Assembly (NCBI GenBank): GCA_003553945.1
Contig: PWEL01000001.1
Coordinates: 1-49,831, forward strand
DNA: 49,831 bases
Reading direction: 5' to 3'
DNA from: Mollicutes bacterium
GTDB lineage: Bacteria; Bacillota_I; Bacilli_A; Izemoplasmatales; Izemoplasmataceae
Within the stretch, counting starts at the first letter, position 1; each line of letters starts with the position of its first letter. The position numbers and the translations under genes are program-made. Shown here piece after piece: positions 11,371-44,722 of the stretch. The notes under the pieces were generated by a model, which saw only the letters and a program-made list of their open reading frames with translations, was not told the origin of the DNA and did no database searches.

Positions 11371-11474
11371 GATTCAACCTCCTTAAAAAACTCATGTATA
11401 TTCTATACGAATACCGCTTTTTTTTCTAACAAAACGATTAAATTTCTTCCTGCAGGCGACGTTTTTTTGGGATA

Positions 11475-11483
11475 TGCTATAAT
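11475..11483 (+). promoter_or_regulatory. Extended -10 promoter of the flavoprotein gene
   Basis: TGC-TATAAT gives a perfect -10 with the extended TG. The -35 position (around 11455) is poor. The site is 22 bases upstream of the ATG at 11506. Confidence 0.55.
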
Positions 11484-11505
11484 GGATATTGAAGAGGTGG
11501 TCCCC

Positions 11506-13568: not shown

Positions 13569-16500
13569 TCACGATTCGTTATCTTCCGCCTCTTCGCTGT
13601 AGTCCATCGCCGCAAAGCGCTTATACATGCGATAACGCCGTTTGGCGTCTTCGATGTTCGCTTTGAGGAGTTCGTCAGCCTTTTCAGGGTTGATATCATG
13701 GAGCTGGGCATAACGGGCCTCGTTGAGCAGGAAGTCTTCGTATTGATCCCATTTGGGTTCCTTGGAGTCGATCTGGAAGGGGTTCTTGCCTTTCTTTCTG
13801 AGGCGGGGGTCGAAACGGAAAGTGGGCCAATAGCCAACCTGTGTCGCAAGCTTCGCCTGTTCTTGGGATTGCGTGAGACCGCCTTTGATCTTGTGGGCGA
13901 TGCAGGGGCTGTAGGCGATGATTACCGAGGGGCCGGGATAGGATTCGGCTTCGCGGAACGCTTTGACCACTTGCTGCTGGCTGGCGCCGTGCGATACTTG
14001 CGCTACGTAGACATCACCATAGCTTGTCGCGAGTGTCGCCAGATCCTTGCGCTGTCCACTCTTGCCGGCCGCTGTGAACGCCGCGATGGAACCTGCGGGA
14101 GCGGCTTTGGAGGACTGTCCGCCAGTGTTGGAGTATACCTGGGTATCGAGGACGAGGATATTGACATCATCGCCGCTGGCGATTACGTGGTCGAGGCCGC
14201 CGTAGCCGATGTCATAAGCCCATCCGTCGCCGCCGATGATCCAATTGGACTGTTTGACTGCGTACGGGAGGAGTTCAAGAAGTTCATCCTTGAGCTCACC
14301 GTCATATGCTTCGACTTTCGGACGGAGCTTCTTATAGAGTTCCAACGTCTTATCGCCGTCATAGCGGTTCTCGACCCACTCTTCAAGGAGTCCCTTGATC
14401 TCAGCGGGGAGCGATTCCTTGTTTTCGGCTATGAAGTTCTGGAGCCTGTCGCGCATTGTCTCTTCAGCGAGATACATGCCATAGCCGAACTCGGCATTGT
14501 CCTCGAAGAGGCTGCTCGCCCAGGCAGGGCCTCTGCCGTCTTCGTTGGTTGTGTATGGTGTTGCCGGGAACGAACCGCCGTAGATCGAGGAACAGCCGGT
14601 CGCATTGGCGATGACCATGCGTTCGCCGAACAGCTGTGTGGCGACCTTCACATAAGGTGTCTCACCGCAGCCGGCACAAGCGCCGCTGAATTCAAACAGG
14701 GGCTCGGCGAACTGCGAGTTCTTCGCGTTGGTCTTCTTGACAAGATCCTCTTTGGAGGACACTTCGTTATAGAGATATTCAGCTTTTCGGGCTTCGCCTT
14801 TTTCAAGTTCCTCACCGATCGGGCTCATCTCAAGCGCCTTCTCGGGTGCGGGGCAGACTTCCACGCAGACACCGCAGCCGGTACAGTCAAGGGTCGAGAC
14901 CTGGATGCGGTAATTCAGGTCGCTGATGCCCTTGCCGCGTGCGTCAAGTGTCGTGGTGCCTTCAGGCGCATTTTTGAGCTCCTCGTCCGTAAGCAGATAA
15001 GGACGGATGACCGAATGCGGACAGGCGAAGGCGCACTGGTTGCACTGGATGCAGTTCTCTTCAATCCAGCGGGGCACTTTATTCGCTATGCCGCGTTTCT
15101 CATAGGCTGTGGAGCCTTGTTCCATGGTGCCGTCATAATAATCCTCGAACGCAGAGACCGGAAGGTCGTATCCTTCCAACGCACCGACAGGCTCCGCAAT
15201 CTCACGTACATATTTGGGCTTGTCTTCATCTTCAGTCGAAGGTTCGTCCTCAAGGTTCTTCCATTCGTCCTTGACTTCGACCTTGACGAGGCCTTCTTTA
15301 CCCTTGTCGATCGCCTGGAAGTTCTTTTCAACGACTTCCTTGCCCTGACGGCCGTACGCCTTCTCGGCATAGTCCTTCATGAGCTCTTGCGCGCGCTCAT
15401 ACGGAATGATGTGGTCGTTGAGGGCGAAGAACGCGGACTGCATGATGGTGTTGATGCGTTCGCCGAGACCGATCTCCTCAGCGAGGTCGACAGCGTTGAT
15501 GATATAGAATGTGGCGTTCTTTTCAGCTAACTGACGCTTCACCTTGTTGGGGAGGAAGGCTTCGACATCCTCCTTGGATTTGTTCGTGTTCAATAGGAAC
15601 GTGCCGTCGTCGCGCATACCTTTCAGCATATCGTACTTGAACAGGTAGGAATCCTTCGAGCAGCTGACGAAATGCGGATGGGACACGAGATAGGTGCTCC
15701 TGATCGGCTTCTCGCTGAACCTAAGATACATACGGGTGATGCCGCCGGATTTCTTGGAGTCATACCCGGCATAGGCCTGGCCGTAGAGGTCCGTATTCTC
15801 ACCGATGATCTTGATTGTGTTCTTGGACGCACCGACGGTGCCGTCGCTGCCGAAACCGAAAAAGAGGAGTTCCGTCGTCGTCGGGTCGGTGGTGCGGATC
15901 TCTTCGGGAAGTTCAAGGGAAGTGTGGTTCACATCGTCTTCGATGCCGATGGTGAAACGATTCTTCTGTTCTCCCGCGAGATTCTGATAGACGGCCTTGA
16001 TCTGCGTGGGTGTGGTGTCCTTGCTCGAGAGTCCGTAGCGGCCGCCGAGAATGAGGGGGGCGTTCTCCTTGCCGTAATAGGCACTGCGGACATCGAGGTA
16101 GAGCGGTTCGCCGATAGAACCGTTCTCCTTCGTCCTGTCGAGGACCGCGATGCGCTCGACGCTTTCAGGCATGGCGTCGAAGAAATATTTCTCGCTGAAG
16201 GGTCGATAGAGATGCACTGTGAGCAGACCCACCTTGCGCCCTTCTTTATCGCGCAGATAATCGATCGTCTCGCGGATGGTCTCGGTCACGGAGCCCATCG
16301 CGACGATGACATCCGTCGCATCCTCATCACCATAATAGGTGAAGGGAGCGTATTCACGGCCTGTCTCCTTGCTGATCTCTTTCATATAGTCCGCAACGAT
16401 GTCAGGGATATCGAAATAGAATTTCTCCTGGATCTCCCGGTTCTGCATGTAGACATCATCGTTCTGCGCGCTGCCGCGGGTGACCGGGTTGTTCGAGCTG

Positions 16501-17126
16501 AGCGCCCTCGCTTTGAAGTCACGCACAGCCTGCCTATCGAGCAGACGGTCGTACACGTCATAGGGCATGACCTCGATCTTGTTCACTTCATTCGAAGTCC
16601 TGAACCCGTCAAAGAAATGGACGAATGGTACGCTGGACTTGATCGCCGCTAGATGGGCGACGCCGCCTAGGTCCATGACTTGTTGTACGGAACCTGTCGC
16701 AAGCATCGCGAACCCTGTCTGGCGCGCAGCCATGACGTCCTGATGGTCGCCGAAGATGGAAAGCGCCTGGACGGAGATGCTTCTGGCGGAGATGTGGATT
16801 ACACCGGGCAGAAGTTCTCCTGCGATCTTATACATGTTGGGCACTTTAAGCAAAAGCCCCTGGGATGCAGTGTAAGTGGTCGTCAAGGCACCGCCCTGCA
16901 AAGAGCCGTGCACAGCACCGGCCGCGCCGGCTTCTGATTGCATCTCGACGACTTTGACCGGCATGCCGAAAAGATTCTTCTTGCCTTGTGATGCCCAAAG
17001 GTCAGTAAGTTCGGCCATGGGCGATGATGGTGTGATGGGATAGATTCCCGCTACTTCGGTGAAGGCATAGGCCGCATGCGCCGCCGCCTGATTACCATCC
17101 ATCGATTGAAATTGTTTAGTCGCCAT
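13569..17126 (-). CDS. nifJ: Pyruvate:ferredoxin (flavodoxin) oxidoreductase, single-chain
   Basis: PFOR oxidises pyruvate to acetyl-CoA and CO2 and reduces ferredoxin, the central reaction of many anaerobic fermenters. The 1185-residue chain has the expected domain order. An N-terminal pyrimidine-binding domain carries Y-P-I-T-P-S-S-P-M-A-E. The ferredoxin-like domain has two 4Fe-4S motifs, C-I-Q-C-N-Q-C-A-F-A-C-P near residue 690 and C-T-G-C-G-V-C-V-E-V-C-P near 745. C-A-G-C-G-E-T near 815 helps hold the proximal cluster. The thiamine motif G-D-G-W-A-Y-D-I-G-Y-G-G is near 965. GGAGG is eight bases before the ATG. It is a monocistronic unit, and the suf operon nearby supplies Fe-S clusters. 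Confidence 0.97.
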   Translation of the reverse strand: MATKQFQSMDGNQAAAHAAYAFTEVAGIYPITPSSPMAELTDLWASQGKKNLFGMPVKVVEMQSEAGAAGAVHGSLQGGALTTTYTASQGLLLKVPNMYKIAGELLPGVIHISARSISVQALSIFGDHQDVMAARQTGFAMLATGSVQQVMDLGGVAHLAAIKSSVPFVHFFDGFRTSNEVNKIEVMPYDVYDRLLDRQAVRDFKARALSSNNPVTRGSAQNDDVYMQNREIQEKFYFDIPDIVADYMKEISKETGREYAPFTYYGDEDATDVIVAMGSVTETIRETIDYLRDKEGRKVGLLTVHLYRPFSEKYFFDAMPESVERIAVLDRTKENGSIGEPLYLDVRSAYYGKENAPLILGGRYGLSSKDTTPTQIKAVYQNLAGEQKNRFTIGIEDDVNHTSLELPEEIRTTDPTTTELLFFGFGSDGTVGASKNTIKIIGENTDLYGQAYAGYDSKKSGGITRMYLRFSEKPIRSTYLVSHPHFVSCSKDSYLFKYDMLKGMRDDGTFLLNTNKSKEDVEAFLPNKVKRQLAEKNATFYIINAVDLAEEIGLGERINTIMQSAFFALNDHIIPYERAQELMKDYAEKAYGRQGKEVVEKNFQAIDKGKEGLVKVEVKDEWKNLEDEPSTEDEDKPKYVREIAEPVGALEGYDLPVSAFEDYYDGTMEQGSTAYEKRGIANKVPRWIEENCIQCNQCAFACPHSVIRPYLLTDEELKNAPEGTTTLDARGKGISDLNYRIQVSTLDCTGCGVCVEVCPAPEKALEMSPIGEELEKGEARKAEYLYNEVSSKEDLVKKTNAKNSQFAEPLFEFSGACAGCGETPYVKVATQLFGERMVIANATGCSSIYGGSFPATPYTTNEDGRGPAWASSLFEDNAEFGYGMYLAEETMRDRLQNFIAENKESLPAEIKGLLEEWVENRYDGDKTLELYKKLRPKVEAYDGELKDELLELLPYAVKQSNWIIGGDGWAYDIGYGGLDHVIASGDDVNILVLDTQVYSNTGGQSSKAAPAGSIAAFTAAGKSGQRKDLATLATSYGDVYVAQVSHGASQQQVVKAFREAESYPGPSVIIAYSPCIAHKIKGGLTQSQEQAKLATQVGYWPTFRFDPRLRKKGKNPFQIDSKEPKWDQYEDFLLNEARYAQLHDINPEKADELLKANIEDAKRRYRMYKRFAAMDYSEEAEDNES

Positions 17127-19057: not shown

Positions 19058-19089
19058 AGTTGTTGCGTATTTTATAAGGAGTGATCGAC

Positions 19090-21675
19090 ATGGACAACCC
19101 AATAGCTAAACGTATCTTGATCGTAGGCACGATCTTCGTGCTGATCATCGTCCTCGCTGTCGCATGCAATGAGATTCTCGATGACGATGACGACCCCACC
19201 GTCAGCAACCCTGAGGAACCCTTTTTCACCTACGGTGAGAACGTCATCACACGTGGAGAACTATACGACCGCATGAAAGCGGCGGACGGCACTATCCAAT
19301 TGATCGACTACATCGACCAGAAGCTGCTTGAAGATGAGATAGAAGCCATCGAAGACGAAGACGTCGAGGAAGAGATCAAGTGGCTCACCTACGACACCAA
19401 CGACCCCGATGAAATCGATCGGCTGAGCGAGCGCGAGAAAGAAGAGATGGAACAGGAATTCGCCGACCTTGTGCTCATGTCCGGTTTCGACCCGGATGAT
19501 GAGGACAGCGTCGACCGCTATGTGCGCATTCAGCTCGCCAAGGAATCCTACACAAAGAGCCAGTTCCAAAACGACGATGAGGACGAACCCTTCTACGTCA
19601 GCGACGAAGACCTAGAACGCTACTACGAGGACTATAAGCAGGGCGACCTCTCTGCGATATCCCTCCGCTTCTATAATGAAGAGGAATATGAAAACGTGCT
19701 GAACCATTTCAACCTCGTCGATGACTATGAAGACGGATTCGGACTCTACACGGGCGATGAAGATATCGATGACGTCGAAGAGTTCGACGATGAAGACATC
19801 GAGGCGCTCGACGAAGAAGAGACCCTTGAATATTACATCCGCATCCACAACTACCTCTACGCCTATCGGGACACTGTCGATGAGGATTTGGACCTCGAAT
19901 CACTCATCGAGCTGGACTACGAATATTTCCAATATAATCAAGGCGACCTGCAGGAGAAAGCAGCTACACGCGACGAACCATTCTTCGCCGAACTGAGCGA
20001 GACACTCTATCACGACCTGGATGTCGGCGAATTCACAAGCGAGTCTGTCGCTTATGAATTCGAACCCGAGACAGACCCTCAGGACGACCCCTGGCAACAG
20101 CCCCCCGAAGAAGAAGAGGACGATTTCGACGACGTATTCCTCTTCTATGTCCTCGACCGCGAAGAGGTCACGGACTTTGAAGACCTCGCAAGCGGCACCA
20201 AGGCTGTACTCATGGATGAATACACCGAGGACCTGGTAGGGGAGACACAGATCGTCCAGGCCTTCGAACAGCTTCATGAAGAAATCGGCCTCACAATCTA
20301 CGACCAGGGCCTCGCGATGTTCTACGCCGAACAGTTCCAGACGCAACGCGACCTCTACAGTGAGGATTTCGACGGCGAGAACATCGCCACCCTTGACGAT
20401 TTCGACGTCCATATCGACGAGTATTTCGACTACATGGCCGACCGCGTCGGCGCTATCTACGGTTCAGACCTGCTCAAGGAGAAGATCCTCCTCGAGAGCG
20501 AATACTTCATCGAACACTTCGGCGTCCACCAGGAGGCGATCTACGGACAGCGGACCCTGTTCGAAAGACTCCGCGACGCTGTCACTGATGAGGACCGCGC
20601 GAAGAACCGCGACCTCGTCCAGGGCTGGCACGAACAGCTAAGGGACATGCGCGAGCAGGTCGAGGAGATGGGCTTCGAATGGGAGCTCTACTTAGAGCTT
20701 CAGATGTCCGTCACCTCCAACCGCGCCTTCATCAACCGACAAGTCGCCAATTACCTCCAGGGTGATTACATCATGGACAGGGTGGATTTCGACAACGAAG
20801 TGCTCCCCTATCTCGAAGACGCCTATGAGAACTATCTGGACATGGAAAACACCGGTGTTGTATTCTATCTTGACAGGGAAGACGAACTGATAGAGGAAGA
20901 CATAGATGAATATCTCGAGACGCTCTCCAGCGACGAACAAGACGCCTTTGAAAATCTGCTCGAAGACCTTGAAGATACTTTCACAGAAGCTTACGAAGCG
21001 CTCGACGAAGATGAGGACGAAACCCTCGAGGACCTCATCGAGGAGTATGAAACCGCACTGCGCGGCACAGATGAAGATGACGATGACTACAGCCGCTGGG
21101 GCGTCTTCAAGAACGTCGGACTGCGCATCGACACCGATGAGCGCGGCCGCATCACATACAGCGACATCCGTGAAGAGGATGAAGAACTCCGGAACGGCCT
21201 GCGAACTGTATACGAGGCCTTGCTCGAATCCGACGACGATGTGCTGATCTCTGAGAGCCTGACAAAGACCGAGACAGCTTTCCATCTTTTCCAAGCCGAA
21301 CGCACAGATGACACAGAGCGTCCGAGCGCCGCTTTTGACAATGAGGACAATCTCTACGACGAAGGTTTCGAAAACAGCGACGACTTCCCTACCATCGAGC
21401 AGCTCAGTCTCTACAGTCAATACCTCATTGAAGAAAGCAGAGAAACCCCTGCAGAGACGAATGTCCCCGAAGAAGTCGAAGACGCGCTCGATGCATTGTA
21501 CCTAGAGACTCATTCAAGTTTCTTCGGCCAGGCCAACGCCACGATTGTCGTCATCAACGAACTGCTCGAAGGGGACTTCGAAGCGAGCGAGAACGAAGAA
21601 CACCACCGCCACATGCTCGACACAGTGAGCGATATCTTCTACCGCATGCAGTTCCCGCCGATCGAAGACGACTAG
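19090..21675 (+). CDS. Very acidic membrane-anchored protein with SurA/PrsA-like N-terminal domain
   Basis: This is an 861-residue exported protein. A short basic start is followed by a hydrophobic segment (about residues 9-26) ending L-A-V-A-C, which may be a lipobox or part of a plain membrane anchor. The next block, F-F-T-Y-G-E-N-V-I-T-R-G-E-L-Y-D-R-M then L-I-D-Y-I-D-Q-K-L-L, matches the N-terminal chaperone segment of PrsA/SurA foldases. The remaining 750 or so residues are dominated by Asp and Glu with scattered aromatics. No clear parvulin PPIase motif is visible. It is far longer than usual PrsA (about 300). It probably acts outside the membrane, perhaps as a salt-adapted folding factor; function is inferred only from the start. 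It has its own promoter and terminator. Confidence 0.7.
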   Translation: MDNPIAKRILIVGTIFVLIIVLAVACNEILDDDDDPTVSNPEEPFFTYGENVITRGELYDRMKAADGTIQLIDYIDQKLLEDEIEAIEDEDVEEEIKWLTYDTNDPDEIDRLSEREKEEMEQEFADLVLMSGFDPDDEDSVDRYVRIQLAKESYTKSQFQNDDEDEPFYVSDEDLERYYEDYKQGDLSAISLRFYNEEEYENVLNHFNLVDDYEDGFGLYTGDEDIDDVEEFDDEDIEALDEEETLEYYIRIHNYLYAYRDTVDEDLDLESLIELDYEYFQYNQGDLQEKAATRDEPFFAELSETLYHDLDVGEFTSESVAYEFEPETDPQDDPWQQPPEEEEDDFDDVFLFYVLDREEVTDFEDLASGTKAVLMDEYTEDLVGETQIVQAFEQLHEEIGLTIYDQGLAMFYAEQFQTQRDLYSEDFDGENIATLDDFDVHIDEYFDYMADRVGAIYGSDLLKEKILLESEYFIEHFGVHQEAIYGQRTLFERLRDAVTDEDRAKNRDLVQGWHEQLRDMREQVEEMGFEWELYLELQMSVTSNRAFINRQVANYLQGDYIMDRVDFDNEVLPYLEDAYENYLDMENTGVVFYLDREDELIEEDIDEYLETLSSDEQDAFENLLEDLEDTFTEAYEALDEDEDETLEDLIEEYETALRGTDEDDDDYSRWGVFKNVGLRIDTDERGRITYSDIREEDEELRNGLRTVYEALLESDDDVLISESLTKTETAFHLFQAERTDDTERPSAAFDNEDNLYDEGFENSDDFPTIEQLSLYSQYLIEESRETPAETNVPEEVEDALDALYLETHSSFFGQANATIVVINELLEGDFEASENEEHHRHMLDTVSDIFYRMQFPPIEDD

Positions 21676-23390: not shown

Positions 23391-25469
23391 TTAGCCTCCT
23401 AGGGTGCGCAGCACTGTGGTGCTAATCTCGTCGAGCGAAAGCGACGAGGTCGTCTCATGCTCAGCAGGTTCTGAATGATAGAGGACCTCCTGAGGGGTTT
23501 CAAATTCAAAGGTCTCTTCTTTCTTGTTGTTCTTGAAGATGACCGTGAGATGCTCCGTTTCATCGAATATTTCATAGAGGCATGTGCCGCTCTGGCGCAT
23601 CCTCACACGTGTCGAGTGCTTGACTTCATAAGCGGTGTTGAGCCTGAACAGCGGGAAATCCTTGCGAATTCCGACGAGACGCTTGAAATCATCCACATCA
23701 TCCGCGTGCGTGTCGCGTTTCGACCATTCTATGCGGTTGATGCTGTCGGGGCTCTTGTAGGAGTTTCGCACCCCCCGCTTCGAGCGGTAGAACTCCTGTC
23801 CGCTATGGATGAAGGGCACGCCCTGCATCAGAAGCACCATGCTTGTCGCGAGCTTCTGTGCACGTTTCCTATCCTCCCGCGGAGCGTCGGGCATGGCCTT
23901 TCTGGCCTTGTCATAGAAGGTATGGTCGTCATGACACTCGACATAGTTCACACTCTGGGCGGGATACTTGATCGCACCCTTCTGGACCGTGCTGCCTCTA
24001 AGGATGGCCTTGACCGTCTCCGGACGGCGGTTGCTTCCCATCGAATAACCTGAGTCCTCGGCCTGGAAGGTCGAGCCCTTGATGATATCGCGCGTCATGT
24101 CGTTGAAGAAGCCGATGTTGAAGAGGACGTCGTTGTTCTGCAGGTGGGTGAGGCGACGGCTTTCGACGACAGTGGGGATGTTCCATCCTTCGCCATAGAC
24201 AATGATGCTCGGGTCGTACGCCTCGAGCTTCTGCCTTGCTAGATGCATGGTCTCGACATCGATAAGGCCCATCAGGTCGAAACGGAACCCGTCGATGCCG
24301 TACACTCTGGCCCAGTGCATCAGGGAATCGACGATGAACTTGCGGACCATGCGCCGTTCCGTGGCGAGATCCGACCCGCAGCCGCTGGCGTTTGTCAGTT
24401 TGCCGTTCTCATCCACGCGGTAGGCGTAGCCGGGAACCATCTTGCCAAAGGGGAAGGTGTTCACATCATAGACATGATTGTAGACGACATCCATCACCAC
24501 GCCCAGCCCGGACCGGTGCAGGGTGTCTATCATGTATTGAAGCTCGCGGATACGGGAATAAGGGTCTTCCGGGTGTGTGGCGTAGGAACCTTCCGGGACG
24601 TTGTACTGGGAAGGGTTGTACCCCCAGTTGTAAGAAGCTTCCGGGTCGAGTTCGTCCACACCCTCGAAATCATTGAAAGGCATGAACTGGACATGCGTGA
24701 TACCTAGTTCGCGAAGATAGTCGAAGCCGGCGGTCTTGTTCTTCTTCGTTCTGAGACCGCGTTCAACGACACCCCGGAACTTGCCTCGGTGCCTGGCGGA
24801 GATGGCCGGGTCCATAGTGAGGTCCCTGACAGAGGTCTCGTATATGATCGCATCTGTCCCCCTCCTGCCTTCGAAGGGGGCCGGGGTATTCAGCTTCGCA
24901 GGATCGATGACATAGTTCGAGCAGCCGTTCGGACCCGAAGCGATGGCATAGGGGTCCAGAAACGAGCGCCCCTTGCCGTTCACATAGGCTTCATAATAAT
25001 AGGCGGCACCTTCAAGGTCGTCTTCGATGGTCACTTTCCAAAGGCCGCGGTTATCATACTCGAGAGGAATCCTGTCGGTCTTTTCCTTCCGCATCAGGAT
25101 AAGATTGACAGACTTCGCGACAGGGGTCCAGACCTTGAAAACGGTCTCCCAGGGCGTGTAGAAGTGCCCGAGGTCGCCATCATAGTAATAGAGCTCATCG
25201 AAAAGGGACGAGCGTACGATCTCGCCGGTATAGAGCTCGCACTTATGGCCGGTATTGTCATGAATGAAATAGGTCTTGTTGAGGAGGATGAACCCCTCGA
25301 AACGCGCGCGGTATTTAAAGAACGCTTCATAGGTCTTCTCCTCTACGATCTCAAGGGGAAGAGTCTCTCTCTCCCCTTTTACGTAAAAGGGCGGTTCAAT
25401 CGGCTCAGTACGGGGAATCAACAGGGAAATCTCGTGGAAACTTTCAAGATACGCCTCGAATTCAGCCAT
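23391..25469 (-). CDS. pulA: Type I pullulanase (GH13), cytoplasmic
   Basis: This 692-residue enzyme cuts alpha-1,6 branch bonds in pullulan, glycogen or limit dextrins. An N-terminal part and CBM48-like domain (to about residue 190) precede the GH13 barrel. The type I pullulanase motif Y-N-W-G-Y-N-P is near residue 290. Then come V-V-M-D-V-V-Y-N-H, the nucleophile in G-F-R-F-D-L-M-G near 395, the acid/base Glu in Y-G-E-G-W-N near 426, and E-C-H-D-D-H near 510. There is no signal peptide, so it likely acts on internal glycogen or imported maltodextrin. It overlaps the end of cca by 8 bases and has AAGGAG seven bases from the ATG. Confidence 0.95.
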   Translation of the reverse strand: MAEFEAYLESFHEISLLIPRTEPIEPPFYVKGERETLPLEIVEEKTYEAFFKYRARFEGFILLNKTYFIHDNTGHKCELYTGEIVRSSLFDELYYYDGDLGHFYTPWETVFKVWTPVAKSVNLILMRKEKTDRIPLEYDNRGLWKVTIEDDLEGAAYYYEAYVNGKGRSFLDPYAIASGPNGCSNYVIDPAKLNTPAPFEGRRGTDAIIYETSVRDLTMDPAISARHRGKFRGVVERGLRTKKNKTAGFDYLRELGITHVQFMPFNDFEGVDELDPEASYNWGYNPSQYNVPEGSYATHPEDPYSRIRELQYMIDTLHRSGLGVVMDVVYNHVYDVNTFPFGKMVPGYAYRVDENGKLTNASGCGSDLATERRMVRKFIVDSLMHWARVYGIDGFRFDLMGLIDVETMHLARQKLEAYDPSIIVYGEGWNIPTVVESRRLTHLQNNDVLFNIGFFNDMTRDIIKGSTFQAEDSGYSMGSNRRPETVKAILRGSTVQKGAIKYPAQSVNYVECHDDHTFYDKARKAMPDAPREDRKRAQKLATSMVLLMQGVPFIHSGQEFYRSKRGVRNSYKSPDSINRIEWSKRDTHADDVDDFKRLVGIRKDFPLFRLNTAYEVKHSTRVRMRQSGTCLYEIFDETEHLTVIFKNNKKEETFEFETPQEVLYHSEPAEHETTSSLSLDEISTTVLRTLGG

Positions 25470-26643
25470 GATCTCGCTCCTTTAATTGTTCTATGATATG
25501 CATTGCCTCGCGCCTCAGCGCCTGATATTCATTATCGACTTCTCCATCGAGCACGCGCTCGATGAGAAGCTCCAGGGTTTCCTTGATGTGCGAGGGCTTG
25601 CCGATGGGAAGCGCGCGGATGTCCTTGCCGCCGAGCGCCAGTTCGCGACGGTCTTCAATGACAAGGCCACGCGCAATCGAACGAATCGTGGAAGCCTTAT
25701 CGTCGCCGCCGAGCATTCGATGGACGATGTTGACACTCTCGAGCACTGCCTCACCGTGGTCGAAGAGCAGTTTCGGGGTGATGCGTTTCAACGGCAAAAG
25801 ATCCATGACGGTCCGGATGTGCTTTTTATATCTGTTGGAGAGGTGCCAGACCTCCTCGTCGAGACCATCTTCGGCCTCAAAGACCGCAAAGGCCTCCAGC
25901 GGGCCATATTCAATGTCCACATCCTTAAGGATTGACAGCCCGTTGGCGAGTCGGAGGGCTTTATGAAATCCCGCCGCGACCATCGAACGGATGGCGTGCT
26001 TTTTATAAGGTGCGTCGAAGAGCTTGAACAATTCCTCCTGAACGCGTTCTATGGAGATTCTGCGGATGAGGCGTGCATGGCGCTCGATGGCTTCGAGCGT
26101 CCTCTCCTCGATGGTGAAATCGAGCTTGCCGGCGAACCTGAACGCCCTCAGCATCCTGAGCGCATCCTCGGTAAGCCTTTCATCCGGGGCCCCGATGGTG
26201 CGTATACGCTTGAGGGAAAGGTCCTCTTTCCCACCGTGATGGTCATGGATATTTCCGTCCTGGTCCATCACGAGCTGATTGATGGTGAAGTCCCTGCGGG
26301 CGAGGTCTTCTTCAAGCGTGTCGCTATAGCGGATCGAATTGGGGTGGCGATGATTGTCATAAACGGTCTCACGCCGGTATGTGGTGATCTCGAAAGGCAC
26401 TTTATCCACCAGAACCGTCATCGTTCCGAACGCCCTTCCTGTCGCCTTGACACGGGAAAAGAGCGCTTCGATCTCCTCCGGCCTCGCGTTCGTCGTGATA
26501 TCGATATCCTCCGTCGAAAGACCGAGCAGATAATCGCGCACGAACCCTCCGACGAAAAAAGCCTCGTAACCGGCCTCGTTCAATGTCTTTAGGACTTGAA
26601 GACCCAATCTGTGATTTTTATCCACTCTCATCACCGGTTTCAT
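25462..26643 (-). CDS. cca: CCA tRNA nucleotidyltransferase (class II)
   Basis: This enzyme adds or repairs the CCA end of tRNAs. The 393-residue protein has the nucleotidyltransferase head with G-G-F-V-R-D (residues 32-37) and the metal pair D46-x-D48, then R-R-D-F-T-I-N-Q-L near 120 and the E-D-A-L-R-M-L-R-A-F-R-F block. The C-terminal half, about 230 residues, is helical. The first ATG (26643) lacks a ribosome site; MRVDKN at 26631 is also possible. TATAGT sits a few bases upstream of 26643, so the mRNA may be almost leaderless. It is the first gene of a cca-pulA-yhaM operon. Confidence 0.93.
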   Translation of the reverse strand: MKPVMRVDKNHRLGLQVLKTLNEAGYEAFFVGGFVRDYLLGLSTEDIDITTNARPEEIEALFSRVKATGRAFGTMTVLVDKVPFEITTYRRETVYDNHRHPNSIRYSDTLEEDLARRDFTINQLVMDQDGNIHDHHGGKEDLSLKRIRTIGAPDERLTEDALRMLRAFRFAGKLDFTIEERTLEAIERHARLIRRISIERVQEELFKLFDAPYKKHAIRSMVAAGFHKALRLANGLSILKDVDIEYGPLEAFAVFEAEDGLDEEVWHLSNRYKKHIRTVMDLLPLKRITPKLLFDHGEAVLESVNIVHRMLGGDDKASTIRSIARGLVIEDRRELALGGKDIRALPIGKPSHIKETLELLIERVLDGEVDNEYQALRREAMHIIEQLKERDHG

Positions 26644-26735: not shown

Positions 26736-27359
26736 ATGAAAAGCATCGTAGAAACTGTCATGACCTCGTTCGAGATCAGGAAGTCTTCGTTCATCACCTA
26801 TCTTCATCCCGTCCGCGACGAAGACGGGGTCGAAAAGCAACTCGCCGCCGTCAAAAAGGCCCACCCCGACGCTGCCCATCACTGCTATGCCTATAGAATC
26901 GGCGCACAGGCCGAGGTGCAGCGTTTCGAAGACGACGGCGAACCCTTGGGGACAGCCGGCCGTCCCATTCTCGAGGTGCTCAGAAAGAATGACATGACCC
27001 ACATCCTCTGCGTCGTCGTCCGCTATTTCGGAGGCATAAAACTCGGAGCCGGCGGTCTTGTCCGCGCCTATAAAAAGGGCGCAAGCACCGCACTCCAGAG
27101 CGCCAGGATAAGCGAGCAACGAGCACACACTCGCTATACGCTCAAGCTTTCCCATGAACTCGCCCCGAAGCTCGAAGAGTTCCTGCAGCACCGGGGCACC
27201 ATCCAACAAAGGTCCTATGAAAGCGACGGTGTGTTCATCGGCCTCTCCATCCCTTCCGAGGAAGAGGAGCGCTTTGTCGCAAAGCTCAAAGAACAATCCC
27301 AGGGGAAAGCGTCCGTGGAAAAAAAGAAAAGGCGCCTTTACTATACACCTATCAAGTGA
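26736..27359 (+). CDS. YigZ/YvyE family protein (IMPACT domain)
   Basis: This 207-residue IMPACT-family protein has the hallmark D-D-G-E-P-L-G-T-A-G-R-P-I-L-E-V-L near residue 70 and V-V-R-Y-F-G-G-I-K-L-G-A-G-G-L-V-R-A-Y near 100. A C-terminal domain of about 70 residues with an EF-G domain IV-like fold follows. The biochemical role of bacterial members is not settled; eukaryotic IMPACT regulates translation via GCN2. AAGGAGG is seven bases from the ATG. Its 3' end overlaps the convergent DUF1146 gene by 8 bases. Confidence 0.93.
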   Translation: MKSIVETVMTSFEIRKSSFITYLHPVRDEDGVEKQLAAVKKAHPDAAHHCYAYRIGAQAEVQRFEDDGEPLGTAGRPILEVLRKNDMTHILCVVVRYFGGIKLGAGGLVRAYKKGASTALQSARISEQRAHTRYTLKLSHELAPKLEEFLQHRGTIQQRSYESDGVFIGLSIPSEEEERFVAKLKEQSQGKASVEKKKRRLYYTPIK

Positions 27360-27576
27360 ACAAGCGCCTTGTGATATTAATGAGATTCATGACCGCCTGC
27401 AACACGAGAAAGCTAAGGCCGATGCTCAAAAAGATGTAGATGATCTGCATCTGCCAGACGGCGCCTTTTTGAAAATATTTCGTGATGTCAAGACGCATCA
27501 TCGCCTGGAACGTAATGCCCAGCAGAACAAAAAACAGAATCGCTTCGAACATGTCGAAAAACATCTGATCCATCAT
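27352..27576 (-). CDS. DUF1146 (YwzB-like) small membrane protein
   Basis: This 74-residue protein has two hydrophobic helices (about residues 8-25 and 43-66) around a basic loop with L-D-I-T-K-Y-F-Q-K-G-x-x-x-Q-M-Q-I-I-Y-I-F-L-S-I. That layout matches the DUF1146/YwzB family, which in many Bacillota sits near the ATP synthase operon; its function is unknown. AGGAGG is 4 bases from the ATG at 27576 and 7 from the next ATG at 27573, so either may be used. It follows the NusG-II gene by 8 bases on the same transcript. Confidence 0.7.
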   Translation of the reverse strand: MMDQMFFDMFEAILFFVLLGITFQAMMRLDITKYFQKGAVWQMQIIYIFLSIGLSFLVLQAVMNLINITRRLFT

Positions 27577-27584
27577 GATTCCTC

Positions 27585-28010
27585 CTATTGAATAATACCG
27601 TCTGTATCCTCATCGGCGGCCCGACGGATGCGAATGACGACATCGTTGGGCAGACACGTCAATGCCTTATAGGGACTGTTCGTATGCCCTTGATGCTCGC
27701 AGATATCCCGCGGGCTCGTCTGGTCGATGACATTGACACCGTGATCCTCGTAGGCGATGGTGACAGGACCCAGCGTCCCTTCCACCACATAGACTTGCTC
27801 GTCTTCATCGATTTCGATGACATAAGCCTCTTCATGCACTGTGGGCGTTCCGTCCTCAAGGTCTATGGAAAGGACCATCACCCCTTGATAGAGCACTTCC
27901 GCGCTTCCATCCTCGACCCTGCTACGCGCTTCAAGCATCTGCACAGCGAAAAAGAGGCCAAAGGAGATGGCCAGTACCAGCCCTATGAGCAAAAGGTCAT
28001 TGCGTCTCAT
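27585..28010 (-). CDS. NusG domain II-containing membrane protein (EetA-like)
   Basis: This 141-residue protein has one N-terminal membrane helix (about residues 6-25) and an extracytoplasmic beta-rich domain. The signature is C-E-H-Q-G-H followed by L-T-C-L-P-N-D-V-V-I-R-I, typical of the NusG_II (DUF1312) family. Such proteins occur beside Gx-transporter, FMN-binding and ApbE genes, including in Rnf-linked and Listeria-type extracellular electron transfer loci, where a similar protein is called EetA. The same partners lie within 3 kb here. The function of the domain is unknown; the two cysteines could be redox-active. It has a promoter at 28059-28088. Confidence 0.75.
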   Translation of the reverse strand: MRRNDLLLIGLVLAISFGLFFAVQMLEARSRVEDGSAEVLYQGVMVLSIDLEDGTPTVHEEAYVIEIDEDEQVYVVEGTLGPVTIAYEDHGVNVIDQTSPRDICEHQGHTNSPYKALTCLPNDVVIRIRRAADEDTDGIIQ

Positions 28011-28058
28011 CGCTCTCGCCTCTTTCCAGCACCGATTCCTGCAACAAGGACATCATTC

Positions 28059-28088
28059 AGTATACTCGATATCCCCCGCTTCTTGCAA
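28059..28088 (-). promoter_or_regulatory. Promoter of the NusG-II/DUF1146 unit
   Basis: TTGCAA (28083-28088) and TATACT (28059-28064) are 18 bases apart on the minus strand. It is back to back with the promoter of the FMN-binding lipoprotein gene. Confidence 0.6.
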
Positions 28089-28116
28089 CAACCATGCAAT
28101 ACACACCGCAAAACAG

Positions 28117-28145
28117 TTGACATATCCTACTAATTCCATTATACT
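28117..28145 (+). promoter_or_regulatory. Strong promoter of the FMN-binding lipoprotein gene
   Basis: A perfect TTGACA (28117-28122) and TATACT (28140-28145) are exactly 17 bases apart. The following AAGGAGG and ATG at 28186 are well placed, so this gene is likely highly expressed. Confidence 0.85.
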
Positions 28146-28185
28146 TTTTGCAGAAAAAATTAGGAAAAAATAAGGAGGCAACATC

Positions 28186-29046
28186 ATGAAAAAGTTACTG
28201 GCTCTGACAGGTGCCATTCTGCTTGTCTTCACGCTTGCAGCCTGCGGGAATGACTACGGTGATTACGCACCGGGGCTGCACCTCGGGTATACAGAAGGCA
28301 ATGAACCCGACATCGCCTATGTCTATGTAAACGCGGATGGCTACATAGAGGATGTCATCTTCGACAGCGCCTATGAAATCAACGAGGACGACGAGGACTA
28401 CGGACATCTTCAGCTCAATGCGACCAAGCGCGCGTTCGACTACGGACAAGATTACATCATGAGCGACAATGAATATCTCTGGGTCGAACAAATCGACATG
28501 CTCGCTGAAGACATCGTTGAACATCAGGGCAATCCTGAATACGACATCGAAGACGGCAAGTTCGAAGACCCGAGCGATGCAGTCGCAGGCGTCACAATCA
28601 CAGTGAGCGGTTTCATCGGAGCCCTCGAGGACGCGCTCGACCGTGCTTCACTCGGTGAAGACGAAAGTCCTGCCGATTACGATGTAGCGGATGCATCCGG
28701 CGATTACACACCGGGCATCAACTTCGGCTACTACCACACCGAGGATGACTACGACTATGCCATCGTCGCCGTCAATGAAGACGGAGGCCTGGCGCACATC
28801 AAGATCGACTCCGGCTATGAAAGCGAAGGCGACTCCATCACGAAACGTGCGCTCGACTACGGAGAAGGCTACATCATGGATGAAGACGGCTACCTCTGGG
28901 TCGAACAGGTCAATATGCTCGGTGAAGACATCGTGGACCAGCAGGAAGTTCCTGATTACGACCTCGATGACCCGAGTGACGCAATCGCGGGTGTCACTAT
29001 AACCATCAACGGCTACATTGAAGCCGTCAAGGACGCCATCGAGTAA
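28186..29046 (+). CDS. Lipoprotein with two FMN-binding-like repeats (PplA-like)
   Basis: This is a 286-residue acidic surface lipoprotein. The signal peptide ends in the lipobox L-A-A-C (Cys20). Two similar domains follow (about 27-150 and 170-286), each opening with Y-x-P-G-[LI]-[HN]-[LF]-G-Y and sharing T-K-R-A-[FL]-D-Y-G and L-W-V-E-Q. They end in D-A-V-A-G-V-T-I-T (Thr137) and D-A-I-A-G-V-T-I-T (Thr271). These ends match the flavinylation site D-x-x-[SA]-G-[AV]-T, where ApbE attaches FMN to Thr. Listeria PplA has the same two-domain lipoprotein plan and carries electrons to outside acceptors. The next gene is apbE. Covalent FMN here is inferred; the repeats use A-G-V-T and not S-G-A-T. 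Confidence 0.8.
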   Translation: MKKLLALTGAILLVFTLAACGNDYGDYAPGLHLGYTEGNEPDIAYVYVNADGYIEDVIFDSAYEINEDDEDYGHLQLNATKRAFDYGQDYIMSDNEYLWVEQIDMLAEDIVEHQGNPEYDIEDGKFEDPSDAVAGVTITVSGFIGALEDALDRASLGEDESPADYDVADASGDYTPGINFGYYHTEDDYDYAIVAVNEDGGLAHIKIDSGYESEGDSITKRALDYGEGYIMDEDGYLWVEQVNMLGEDIVDQQEVPDYDLDDPSDAIAGVTITINGYIEAVKDAIE

Positions 29047-29048
29047 TC

Positions 29049-29075
29049 AAGCACCGCTTTGGCGGTGCTTTTTTC
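29049..29075 (+). terminator. Terminator after the FMN-binding lipoprotein gene
   Basis: AAGCACCGC (29049-29057) pairs with GCGGTGCTT (29062-29070), followed by a T run. Confidence 0.88.
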
Positions 29076-29078
29076 ATA

Positions 29079-29106
29079 TTAAAACGCACCTTTAACATGA
29101 TACAAT
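29079..29106 (+). promoter_or_regulatory. Probable promoter of apbE
   Basis: TTAAAA (29079-29084) and TACAAT (29101-29106, with an extended TG two bases upstream) are 16 bases apart. Together with the terminator before it, this gives apbE its own transcript. Confidence 0.5.
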
Positions 29107-29135
29107 AAGTTCAAAGAAGAAAAGGAAGATGCGCC

Positions 29136-30428
29136 ATGAAAACCCTCTTCACGCTAGCGCTTCTCGCTTTCCTCATGGTGTCCACAGCACCCCTTGAGGC
29201 TGAAAGCGACGTCGTGAGCACAGAAAGGAAATACACATCCTACTACGACACCACCATCGATGTCACAATCTATCACGACGGTGCGGACATGGATGCTGTA
29301 TTTTCTGAATTCGAGGACGCGCTGCAGGAAATCCACCAGCTCGCCGACCAATACGAAGCGTATGAAGGCATCACAAACCTCAAGACTATCAATGATAACC
29401 CCGGTGAAGCGCACGAAGTGGACCCGCACCTTTTCGAGATGATCAGCACGGGGAAGGACTATTACGACAAGACGGACGGCTATTTCAACATCGCGCTCGG
29501 CCCCGTCATCAACATATGGCAGGATCTGCTGGATCAGTGCGTAGGAATCGAATGCACATTCGAAAGGGATGCACTTCCCGAGAGTGAGACGCTCGAAGCG
29601 GCCGACGCTTATACCGACGTAGAGGACATCTCCCTGAACGCCGATGATCTTACTGTACAGATCGAAGAGGGCATGCATCTGGACCTAGGCGGCATCGCCA
29701 AGGGGTATGGCGCCGAGGTCGCCGCGGAAGTGCTCAAGGATCGAGAAGGCATCGAAGCATTCATCCTGAATGCCGGCACCTCCAACATCGAAGTCTACGG
29801 AGAGAACCCCGAGAGGGAGAGCGGCCTCTGGCGAATCGATATCGTCGACCCTGCCTTCGAACCGGACTTCATCGGCTCCTTGTTCCGTCAGAGGGAGCAT
29901 TTCGCGACCGTCTATCTCGAAGACGGACAGCACATCGTCGGCAGCGGCAACTACGAACGCTTCTTCACCGTCGACGGCGTGCGCTATCATCATCTCATCG
30001 ACCCCTACACACTCTATCCGACAGGCGCTCTCGAAGAGGACATCTCCTTCCTGGAGAACGCGCAGCAGCAATTGCTCTGCCAAACGGAGCGCGATTACTT
30101 CCTCGGCACATGGCTCATCACGGATGATGGCTACAAAGGCGATATCCATGTCACCGCCGCCTATCTGATGGACGTCGAGAGAAGCATCGACTACGTCGAA
30201 CGCCTCGAGGAGACGGAAGGGGTCTTCTTCGGCGCTGATGAGAGAATCTTCAGGACTGAAAATTTCGACGCCGAACTGCATGATGGCTACGAATACAGCG
30301 ACCTCGGCGACCGTGCACCGTGCATACTTCCCGTCGTTGCAATCGGCGGCGGTTTCATCGTCATCGCCGGCGGCGGCGTCGCCTTCACCACAATCAAAAA
30401 CAAGCGAAAACAAATAGAGACCGCATGA
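29136..30428 (+). CDS. apbE: FAD:protein FMN transferase (ApbE), exported, with C-terminal membrane anchor
   Basis: ApbE takes FMN from FAD and links it to a Thr or Ser of extracytoplasmic flavoproteins. The 430-residue protein has a cleavable-type signal peptide (residues 1-22) and the ApbE core with L-D-L-G-G-I-A-K-G-Y-G near 185. H-L-I-D-P-Y-T-L-Y-P-T-G near 290 follows; the usual Gly after the Thr is Leu here. D-I-H-V-T near 335 could be the metal site. Unusually, it ends with a hydrophobic helix (about 399-418) and a basic tail, so it is probably anchored at both ends or held by the C-terminus. AAGGAAG precedes the ATG. The obvious substrate is the lipoprotein encoded just upstream. Confidence 0.9.
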   Translation: MKTLFTLALLAFLMVSTAPLEAESDVVSTERKYTSYYDTTIDVTIYHDGADMDAVFSEFEDALQEIHQLADQYEAYEGITNLKTINDNPGEAHEVDPHLFEMISTGKDYYDKTDGYFNIALGPVINIWQDLLDQCVGIECTFERDALPESETLEAADAYTDVEDISLNADDLTVQIEEGMHLDLGGIAKGYGAEVAAEVLKDREGIEAFILNAGTSNIEVYGENPERESGLWRIDIVDPAFEPDFIGSLFRQREHFATVYLEDGQHIVGSGNYERFFTVDGVRYHHLIDPYTLYPTGALEEDISFLENAQQQLLCQTERDYFLGTWLITDDGYKGDIHVTAAYLMDVERSIDYVERLEETEGVFFGADERIFRTENFDAELHDGYEYSDLGDRAPCILPVVAIGGGFIVIAGGGVAFTTIKNKRKQIETA

Positions 30429-30477
30429 ACCTGTCTGTCTCCTGCCTGAAGGTCTCCTGATCGCCCTTCAATAATGA

Positions 30478-30514
30478 AAACGCCCTTGCCGGAGAAAATC
30501 CGTCAAGGGCTTTC
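30478..30514. terminator. Bidirectional terminator between apbE and the Gx transporter gene
   Basis: GCCCTTGCCGGA (30482-30493) pairs with TCCGTCAAGGGC (30499-30510) with one mismatch, and short T runs follow on both strands. Confidence 0.75.
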
Positions 30515-31022
30515 AATATCTGAGTATCGGCATCTTCTCACGCATCAGCCTGATGAGACGGCGGGCGACCAACCCGGTGAATATACCGGTCGGAACGCTC
30601 ATCAGCAAAAAGATCGGCAATGTGAAGATGATCTCCTCGGTTTCAAGCAAAAACATGGCCATCATGATCTGTCCTACGGCATGGCCGATAGCGCCCATGA
30701 CACTGACGCTTACAATGGTGAACCGCTCCATACGGCTGAAAAGCCACATCAGGAAGAAGGCCAGGAACCCGCCGGAGAGGCTCAGTGCGAAAGCGATCAC
30801 CCCGGCATAAAGCAGACTGACAAGCGCGATGCGCAGGATAAGCACCGCAAATGCGTCTCTCGTGCCATACACATAAAGCACGATAAGGACGACGATATTC
30901 GCAAGCCCCAGCCTGAGCATCGGCAGATTGGTGAAACCGCCGAGCGCCACGCGCTCGACGATATTGAGCACGATGCTCATCGCCAGCAATATAGCGAGAA
31001 ATGTCAATCTGCGCGTTTTCAT
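30513..31022 (-). CDS. Gx transporter family / heptaprenyl diphosphate synthase component I-like membrane protein (EetB-like)
   Basis: This 169-residue membrane protein has about five helices and the family pattern N-L-P-M-L-R-L-G-L-A-N-I-V near residue 35 and V-M-G-A-I-G-H-A-V-G-Q-I near 110. The family is often annotated as HepS subunit I but resembles an ECF-type substrate-binding membrane protein. In Listeria a member (EetB) is needed for extracellular electron transfer and has been linked to flavin export. Here it converges on apbE. The start at 31022 has only a weak GGTGATGG site. The substrate is unknown. Confidence 0.8.
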   Translation of the reverse strand: MKTRRLTFLAILLAMSIVLNIVERVALGGFTNLPMLRLGLANIVVLIVLYVYGTRDAFAVLILRIALVSLLYAGVIAFALSLSGGFLAFFLMWLFSRMERFTIVSVSVMGAIGHAVGQIMMAMFLLETEEIIFTLPIFLLMSVPTGIFTGLVARRLIRLMREKMPILRY

Positions 31023-31107: not shown

Positions 31108-31986
31108 CTAATTCGGTCTCTTCGCCTTGTCGAGGTCGAAATAGGCGATGCCGACAGTCCCCACGCCCGTGTGCGCTCCGATGACCGGCGTGATCGGTGC
31201 CGCATAAGCCGGGACATCCTCATAATGTTCGTCTATGCGACTCTTCACATACTCGAAGCCTTCCTTGTTGTCGCTGGTGTTGTAGGTGATGACGATATTG
31301 TCGAGGGACTCCAGGTCGGCGAGGACGTGTTCGACCATCTTTGTGAGCGCCTTCTGCTGTGTCCGCACCTTCTCGAACGGGACTATCTTGCCATCATCGT
31401 TCACCTCGAGGATCGGCTTGATCTTGAACACGCGCCCCAGGAAGCCGCTCGCACCCGAGAGGCGTCCGTTCTTGACGAGCAGACGGAGATTGTCGACCAT
31501 GAAATACTGCTTTCGCGCAAGCGCGAGGCGTTCAAGATAAGGCACGATGGTCTTTGCGGTTTTGCCCTCTTCGATGAGCTTGAGTGCTTCAATGGAGAGG
31601 AATCCTTCACTGATGGCGGCGTTCTTCGTGTCGACGAGATGGATTTCCAGATCGCCTTCATAGGACTTCTTGGCCATCTCGGCGGTCTGCAGGGTGCCGG
31701 AAAGCTCTGAAGAGATCGTGTTGAAGATGACTTCCTCGTATCCCTGTTTCTCGATCTCCTCGAAGGTCTCGAGCATCTCTCCGAGCGAGGGCATGGAGGA
31801 GGTGGGCACAAGCGATGTGTCGGACTTGATGGTCTCGTAGAATGTGTCGGCGTTGAGGTCGACGAAATCGTTGTAGCTCTTGTCGTCGAGAATAATCTTG
31901 CAGCGTACGATGAAGAGATTGTCATAGGAAATGTCGAGATAATCCAGACAACCGGTGCTGACTGCGATGACAGCGGTTTTCTTCAT
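31108..31986 (-). CDS. DegV family lipid-binding protein (DegV-1)
   Basis: DegV/FakB proteins bind a fatty acid so that FakA can phosphorylate it. This 292-residue copy has N-T-I-S-S-E-L-S-G-T, L-V-K-N-G-R-L-S-G-A-S-G-F, I-K-P-I-L and the end block G-A-H-T-G-V-G-T-V-G-I. The P-T-S-S-M-P-S loop holds the Thr-Ser used for the fatty-acid head group. The usual opening T-D-S-x-x-D is replaced by V-S-T-G-C-L-D-Y. The ATG overlaps the stop of the HAAS gene (ATGA), with AAGGGG upstream. It is last in a degV-marR-padR-HAAS-degV operon. FakA is not in the window. Confidence 0.93.
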   Translation of the reverse strand: MKKTAVIAVSTGCLDYLDISYDNLFIVRCKIILDDKSYNDFVDLNADTFYETIKSDTSLVPTSSMPSLGEMLETFEEIEKQGYEEVIFNTISSELSGTLQTAEMAKKSYEGDLEIHLVDTKNAAISEGFLSIEALKLIEEGKTAKTIVPYLERLALARKQYFMVDNLRLLVKNGRLSGASGFLGRVFKIKPILEVNDDGKIVPFEKVRTQQKALTKMVEHVLADLESLDNIVITYNTSDNKEGFEYVKSRIDEHYEDVPAYAAPITPVIGAHTGVGTVGIAYFDLDKAKRPN

Positions 31987-44698: not shown

Positions 44699-44722
44699 GA
44701 TTAGCGAAAGCGAGTGAAGGAC

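Follow-up and report, generated by a model that had tools for sequence, protein, structure and literature searches.

A flavinylation gene set with a two-domain flavin-binding lipoprotein, possibly fed by Rnf, in a genome of the order Izemoplasmatales

The stretch of DNA analyzed here (the window) comprises 49,831 nucleotides, positions 1 to 49,831 of contig PWEL01000001.1 (assembly GCA_003553945.1), from a metagenome-assembled genome (MAG) of a Mollicutes bacterium in the order Izemoplasmatales. The MAG has a size of 1.17 Mb and is 64% complete. Judged by the lipoprotein described below, its closest named relative is 'Mollicutes bacterium T1Sed10_57', which belongs to the same genus, and the habitat is probably soda-lake sediment, since sample names in the style of T1Sed10_57 are used in papers on hypersaline soda-lake sediment. 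Between positions 27585 and 31022 lie four genes that the initial annotation had likened to the extracellular electron transfer (EET) locus of Listeria. Pfam profile matches confirm all four gene types at these positions.

27585..28010, minus strand: NusG-II membrane protein, EetA-like (Pfam PF07009 NusG_II, E=7.7e-14)
28186..29046, plus strand: acidic PplA-like lipoprotein of 286 residues with two flavin mononucleotide (FMN)-binding repeats, FMN_bind (PF04205, E=3.9e-11)
29136..30428, plus strand: ApbE, a flavin adenine dinucleotide (FAD):protein FMN transferase (Pfam PF02424, E=9.7e-54)
30513..31022, minus strand: Gx / Hpre_diP_synt_I membrane protein, an EetB-like S subunit of the energy-coupling factor (ECF) type (PF07456, E=3.7e-34)

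The NusG-II protein consists of a single N-terminal transmembrane segment and an external domain with two cysteines. Gx has several transmembrane segments and a second, weaker Pfam match to ECF_trnsprt (E=8e-4). The EetA-type (PF07009) and EetB-type (PF07456) profiles both exceed their cut-off, and the kinship to EetA, PplA, FmnB and EetB proposed earlier holds for each of the four genes. The lipoprotein is placed in the FMN-binding family, as had been assumed, by a match of 43.9 bits over two stretches (cut-off 22). An Rfam search at the locus gave no matches. Comparison with the relatives shows that the four-gene order is kept throughout the genus, with Gx displaced onto another contig in one genome (G004). 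The grouping is not a product of chance, as the genes are syntenic in other members of the genus and in the relative G006.

In a set of 139 genomes of the class, ApbE is present in 88, NusG-II in 86, Gx in 89 and all three in 85. The 88 genomes with ApbE include 86 with NusG-II and 87 with Gx, and NusG-II was never seen without ApbE. Fisher tests on the pairs of this trio give p values, uncorrected for phylogeny, of ~1e-31 to 1e-36 (~4e-36 for ApbE and NusG-II), and the three genes lie within 20 kb of one another in 47 genomes. EetB, the characterized Gx protein, is an FAD-binding ECF-S subunit that exports FAD for ApbE and is needed for the flavinylation of PplA (PMC9973259). The same study counted 3,328 genomes with eetB near eetA and 2,169 with eetB near apbE, mostly together with Rnf or EET systems, and reported normal EET activity for a Listeria eetA deletion. 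Because the class-wide co-occurrence agrees with EetB being an FAD exporter, we read the trio as a flavinylation kit; NusG-II, ApbE and Gx of the window very probably form a flavinylation module and are not electron carriers. The idea that the four genes make up an electron-transfer chain is therefore not borne out: EetB exports FAD, the eetA deletion leaves EET unaffected and the trio is found class-wide. Deletion of eetA/B in Lactiplantibacillus plantarum affected flavin-dependent EET (PMC9888254), which would also be expected from the loss of FAD export. The Pfam name of Gx, a component of heptaprenyl diphosphate synthase, was rejected as a function, since the family member EetB has been shown to bind FAD (PMC9973259).

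The ApbE protein has hydrophobic segments at its N terminus and its C terminus, and the nearest solved structure is that of Listeria FmnB (7esa), an enzyme that works through a Ser-His-Asp triad (PMC12052999). When 20 family members are aligned, the window protein is seen to retain the conserved SG, HH and D(x)3T positions, as Ser270, His285/286 and Asp336. With the catalytic Ser, His and Asp conserved, the enzyme should be active. One ApbE copy was found in the MAG, and the genus members that are 91-96% complete likewise have one each; this single ApbE should therefore also serve the Rnf complex that is encoded elsewhere in the genome. A separate feature of the protein is an insertion of ~23 residues (~299-325) that contains a cysteine just ahead of the catalytic Asp. 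It occurs in all six members of the window's genus and is absent from other genera.

The lipoprotein carries the lipobox LAAC with the lipidated residue at Cys20, and its composition is strongly acidic (24% Asp+Glu). Orthologues are found in the genus and beyond, and throughout the genus the gene adjoins ApbE at a fixed position. Each repeat contains a putative flavin-attachment motif.

28576..28596, plus strand: putative attachment motif of repeat 1, D131-A-V-A-G-V-T137, from a motif scan; off the consensus Dxx[ST]GA[ST]
28978..28998, plus strand: putative attachment motif of repeat 2, D265-A-I-A-G-V-T271, from a motif scan

Relative to the consensus, DAVAGVT and DAIAGVT retain the Asp, the Gly and the Thr, with two other positions altered, so that the Asp and the Thr/Ser are present in both repeats. 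On balance, the lipoprotein is probably a real flavinylated client of the module.

Signals for the expression of the lipoprotein gene were located on both sides of it.

28117..28145, plus strand: sigma-70-type promoter of the lipoprotein gene, TTGACA-17-TATACT, 11/12 matches
29049..29070, plus strand: terminator-like hairpin in the gap between the lipoprotein gene and apbE, a 9-pair stem followed by a T run, clear by eye

The description of this promoter as near perfect is accurate, and far above chance: the window contains two sites as good as this one where 0.01 are expected. A promoter for each of the other genes could not be confirmed, because the candidates for NusG-II, ApbE and Gx have 9/12 matches, the level of shuffled sequence. 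The ribosome-binding site of the lipoprotein gene is strong, judged by eye, and hairpin matches of this kind are no more numerous in the region than expected by chance. By its signals, the lipoprotein gene would seem to be expressed strongly and on its own.

The search for rnf genes in the remainder of the genome located an operon on contig C44, in the order C-D-G-E-A-B. Its RnfG and RnfD contain the flavinylation motifs STGAT and AGAT, respectively. Two features of these Rnf proteins may be recorded in their own right. RnfB has only ~100 residues order-wide (L028:7787-8089 and the Rnf loci L104-L107, L110-L113, L116 and L117), and consists of a membrane segment and one FeS domain; the 2x[4Fe-4S] ferredoxin domain that RnfB usually has is missing. 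RnfG is enlarged in the window's genome (L028:9642-11081, 479 residues), where it contains one FMN_bind domain and perhaps further, degenerate ones. An enzyme that could supply Rnf with reduced ferredoxin is encoded in the window itself.

13569..17126, minus strand: pyruvate:ferredoxin oxidoreductase (PFOR), Pfam POR_N (E=3.5e-71) and others

The suggestion of a reduced system fed by ferredoxin is thus supported, as the genome carries both PFOR and Rnf. The window also encodes a flavoprotein similar to flavocytochrome c and fumarate reductase (11455-12852, plus strand; TIGR01813, 404.6 bits), which has no clear signal peptide and has relatives in G001 and G004.

The type II NADH dehydrogenase of Listeria, reported as missing from the window, was not found beyond it either. 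The Pyr_redox_2 matches of four genus genomes, three of them 91-96% complete, are lipoamide dehydrogenase, CoA-disulfide reductase, thioredoxin reductase, SoxA-like and other non-Ndh2 proteins, and none is an Ndh2-type enzyme. The proposed search for dmkA had a divided outcome: there is no quinone cluster, and one lone UbiA-family gene is present in the own genome. This gene is situated on C44 amid housekeeping genes such as uvrC, no quinone or Ndh2 gene was found in the flanks scanned, and no UbiA-family gene was found in G001 (96% complete) or G003 (91%). Because the Ndh2 type was not found and UbiA is either absent or lone, the Listeria-type route from NADH through Ndh2 to demethylmenaquinone is unlikely, the quinone side being judged on UbiA, with DmkB not searched. 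For the ECF-T subunit, one CbiQ-family gene is present in each genus relative searched, and none was found in the 64% complete MAG.

The corresponding regions were fetched from relatives and annotated by homology to the window genes. In the window, the locus is framed by the following order-wide neighbors, identified with Pfam and, for the first three, NCBIfam.

25462-26643, minus strand: CCA tRNA nucleotidyltransferase, before YigZ
26736-27359, plus strand: YigZ, left side of the frame
27352-27576, minus strand: DUF1146, left side of the frame
31108..31986, minus strand: DegV-family protein, right side of the frame

The arrangement pullulanase-CCA transferase-YigZ-DUF1146-NusG-II-[slot]-ApbE-Gx-DegV is largely kept in three families of the order, and the content of the slot between NusG-II and ApbE is exchanged. 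In families f2 and f3 the slot is empty or holds an unrelated gene. Gx and NusG-II of f2 share one open frame, a fusion that was confirmed by Pfam in G025 and is indicated in the rest. In five relatives (G008, G012, G014, G018 and G023) the slot holds a pair of RnfC-like and RnfD-like genes, fragments of which are seen in G007 and G022. The RnfC-like protein is of the 4Fe-4S type, and the copies checked show no NADH-binding domain at a significant level, barring one weak match. Six relatives (G010, G011, G013, G015, G016 and G021) have an operon of a [FeFe]-hydrogenase-like gene and RnfC, D, G, E and A, with extra lipoproteins. The FMN lipoprotein is the only content of the slot in the window's genus, G006 and G017. 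On the tree of the flanking CCA transferase the slot states require 4 changes, where the minimum possible is 3, and the lipoprotein-only clade nests within the clade with an Rnf-bearing slot. With f2 and f3 as the outgroup, this suggests that an Rnf-type cargo was gained and later reduced; the order of events is inferred, and some deep forks of the tree are unresolved.

Some slot proteins of the relatives are unusual in themselves. Their RnfG2 proteins have ~500-780 residues and several attachment-like motifs. The HydA-like subunit, whose gene heads this second Rnf operon, has lost the first cysteine of TSCCP in four of the six genomes (G010, G013, G021 and G015; loci L046:10210-11907, L052, L041 and L053) and has all motifs intact in L040 and L054. 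In the proteins without this cysteine, the remaining Cys positions of the H-cluster and all 15 cysteines of the N-terminal part are in place. The HydA-like subunit may have come to conduct electrons within an Rnf-like complex whose operon has no RnfB gene. Outside the locus, the window encodes a protein with a MASE1 sensor domain and an HD (HD-GYP-like) domain, possibly involved in cyclic-nucleotide signaling (44714-46753, plus strand), and a very acidic secreted or anchored protein of 864 residues that has no Pfam match and is conserved in the genus (19081-21675, plus strand).

Taken together with published work on the family, these observations lead to the following model. Gx would be the substrate-binding subunit of an ECF-type transporter and export FAD, and the membrane-anchored ApbE would move FMN from the exported FAD onto proteins outside the membrane, assisted by NusG-II, for which the partnership with Gx is likewise taken from the family literature. 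The clients would be the Rnf subunits RnfG and RnfD, whose genes lie elsewhere in the genome, and, probably, the neighboring two-domain lipoprotein. The initial annotation had raised the objection that Gx and NusG-II might serve only an unrelated Rnf system. It is correct in so far as they probably serve Rnf flavinylation, and it goes too far in that they would serve the lipoprotein as well. Anchored by its lipid on the outer face of the membrane, the lipoprotein would accept electrons from the external flavins of Rnf and hand them to an external acceptor; Rnf itself could be fed by ferredoxin, with PFOR as one possible source. It would thus act like PplA, with Rnf replacing Ndh2 and demethylmenaquinone. 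Multi-flavinylated proteins often sit with known membrane electron-transfer systems (PMC8238504).

A reduced, Rnf-fed version is the most likely description of the locus in the window. That it combines the flavinylation module with one extra client, the lipoprotein, and Rnf-fed electron export has about an even chance of being correct, and the odds are similarly balanced for electrons entering from Rnf instead of from Ndh2 and a quinone. For the whole chain up to an outside acceptor the chance is even at best and perhaps somewhat lower. EET by this organism is plausible and unproven. A broader and more tentative idea is that fermenting Mollicutes-related bacteria export electrons without quinones, from ferredoxin through the Rnf flavins to the lipoprotein. 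The kit would then be a dock to which different clients (the hydrogenase-Rnf operon, the RnfC/D pair or the lipoprotein alone) were fitted during evolution, with an ApbE adapted to GVT/S motifs.

The specific claim of electron export stands or falls with the lipoprotein, and several points weigh against it. No gene for an external acceptor was identified, the MAG is only 64% complete and the Rnf operon is not adjacent to the locus in the window's genus. Given the strong promoter and the hairpin before apbE, co-transcription of the lipoprotein gene with apbE is not clear. The lipoprotein domains inspected across the order read GV[TS], not GA[TS], and an Ala-to-Val exchange at the matching motif position of another protein left ~50% flavinylation (PMC12052999). 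In genus g5 (G009, 96% complete, and G024) a one-domain lipoprotein with Ser at the attachment site is kept, and ApbE and NusG-II were not found; RnfC was also not found in G009. Because of the GV[TS] motif, the half-flavinylated precedent and the ApbE-less g5, a partial or lost flavinylation, or a non-covalently bound FMN, is a live alternative. A sequence search of the PDB with the lipoprotein gave chance matches only and no solved relative, the AlphaFold models are poor (predicted local distance difference test score, pLDDT, of 30 with a 2-row alignment and 38 for a single domain with 4 rows) and HHalign gives a 10% probability for the repeats against RnfG domains, using shallow profiles. 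For the domain assignment, the Pfam match is better evidence than HHalign. The g5 lipoprotein genes themselves (L035:6891-7412 and L036:7235-7843) lie close to a groEL-like gene.

Part of this evidence would fit a housekeeping kit for Rnf only, where the trio matures RnfG and RnfD, and the lipoprotein is an unrelated neighbor outside electron export. The trios of f2 and f3 have no PplA-like gene between their members and a canonical Rnf elsewhere, the RnfG motif is retained, with a few variants, in the canonical Rnf operons inspected, and the off-consensus lipoprotein motif and its persistence in g5 agree with this explanation. We nevertheless consider it rather unlikely, as the lipoprotein is fixed in the slot across the genus, G006 and G017, its two FMN_bind repeats are kept with the Asp and the Thr/Ser conserved, and relatives again have FMN-type lipoproteins in the corresponding position, often beside a slot Rnf-type operon or the RnfC/RnfD-like pair. 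The family-wide GV[TS] motif and the Ser-bearing g5 protein could also indicate a lipoprotein with non-covalent FMN, or one that is weakly flavinylated, which reduces ferric iron for uptake or acts in oxidant defense and not in respiration-like export. That ApbE directly adjoins the lipoprotein in the whole genus, and that no iron-transport gene is among the immediate neighbors scanned (26.7-34.2 kb), make this improbable. A true Listeria-type system, in which a type II dehydrogenase takes electrons from NADH and passes them by way of demethylmenaquinone to flavin and PplA, would account for the likeness of the four gene types to EetA, PplA, FmnB and EetB and for the lone UbiA-family gene. The lack of an Ndh2-like protein in the four genus genomes, together with the distribution and the flanks of UbiA described above, leaves it very little probability.

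The reading as a flavinylation module with a lipoprotein client has consequences beyond this genome. EetA, EetB and ApbE, often taken as an electron-transfer signature, are a flavinylation kit that accompanies Rnf and other clients; therefore, surveys that call EET from EetA and EetB alone may over-call it. The locus also offers a testable case in which Rnf, not an NADH dehydrogenase with a quinone, would feed the multi-flavin lipoprotein of small-genome fermenters, and it marks a well-defined site on the chromosome for comparing slot contents across the order.

In the papers searched, nothing was found directly on the combination of NusG-II, Gx and FMN-binding proteins or on hydrogenase-Rnf clusters. 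The trio, its link to Rnf, the EetA-EetB fusion and multi-flavin proteins are already published; for the exchangeable slot and the reduced form with only the lipoprotein, we found no prior description in the literature on these systems. The EET locus of Listeria monocytogenes (eetA, eetB, pplA, fmnB, fmnA, ndh2, dmkA and dmkB) clusters the same four gene types, including a lipoprotein with two FMN_bind repeats. In contrast to it, the system of the window is without a detected Ndh2, a dmkA context or an ECF-T found at the locus, its genes are on both strands, its lipoprotein motif is GVT and its genome contains an Rnf operon. Because the defining component Ndh2 was searched for and not found, the locus is not classed as a member of the Listeria type. 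The eetB-apbE-Rnf clusters of Firmicutes (Rivera-Lugo et al. 2023, PMC9973259) likewise combine Gx, NusG-II and ApbE in Rnf-bearing genomes, and EetA-EetB fusions, reported there for 14 genomes, are also seen here in f2. Unlike in those clusters, Rnf is encoded here on a different contig, and the FMN lipoprotein alone occupies the slot between NusG-II and ApbE. Multi-flavinylated extracytosolic proteins (Meheust et al. 2021, PMC8238504; Huang et al. 2024, PMC11334425) similarly have more than one FMN-binding domain, are lipid-anchored and lie beside apbE, whereas the lipoprotein domains of this order have Val for Ala in the attachment motif and their flavin attachment is predicted. Finally, the RnfC-like/RnfD-like pair held in the slot by some relatives resembles the NQR/RNF-like single-path systems (PMC8238504), a pair that the window is without.

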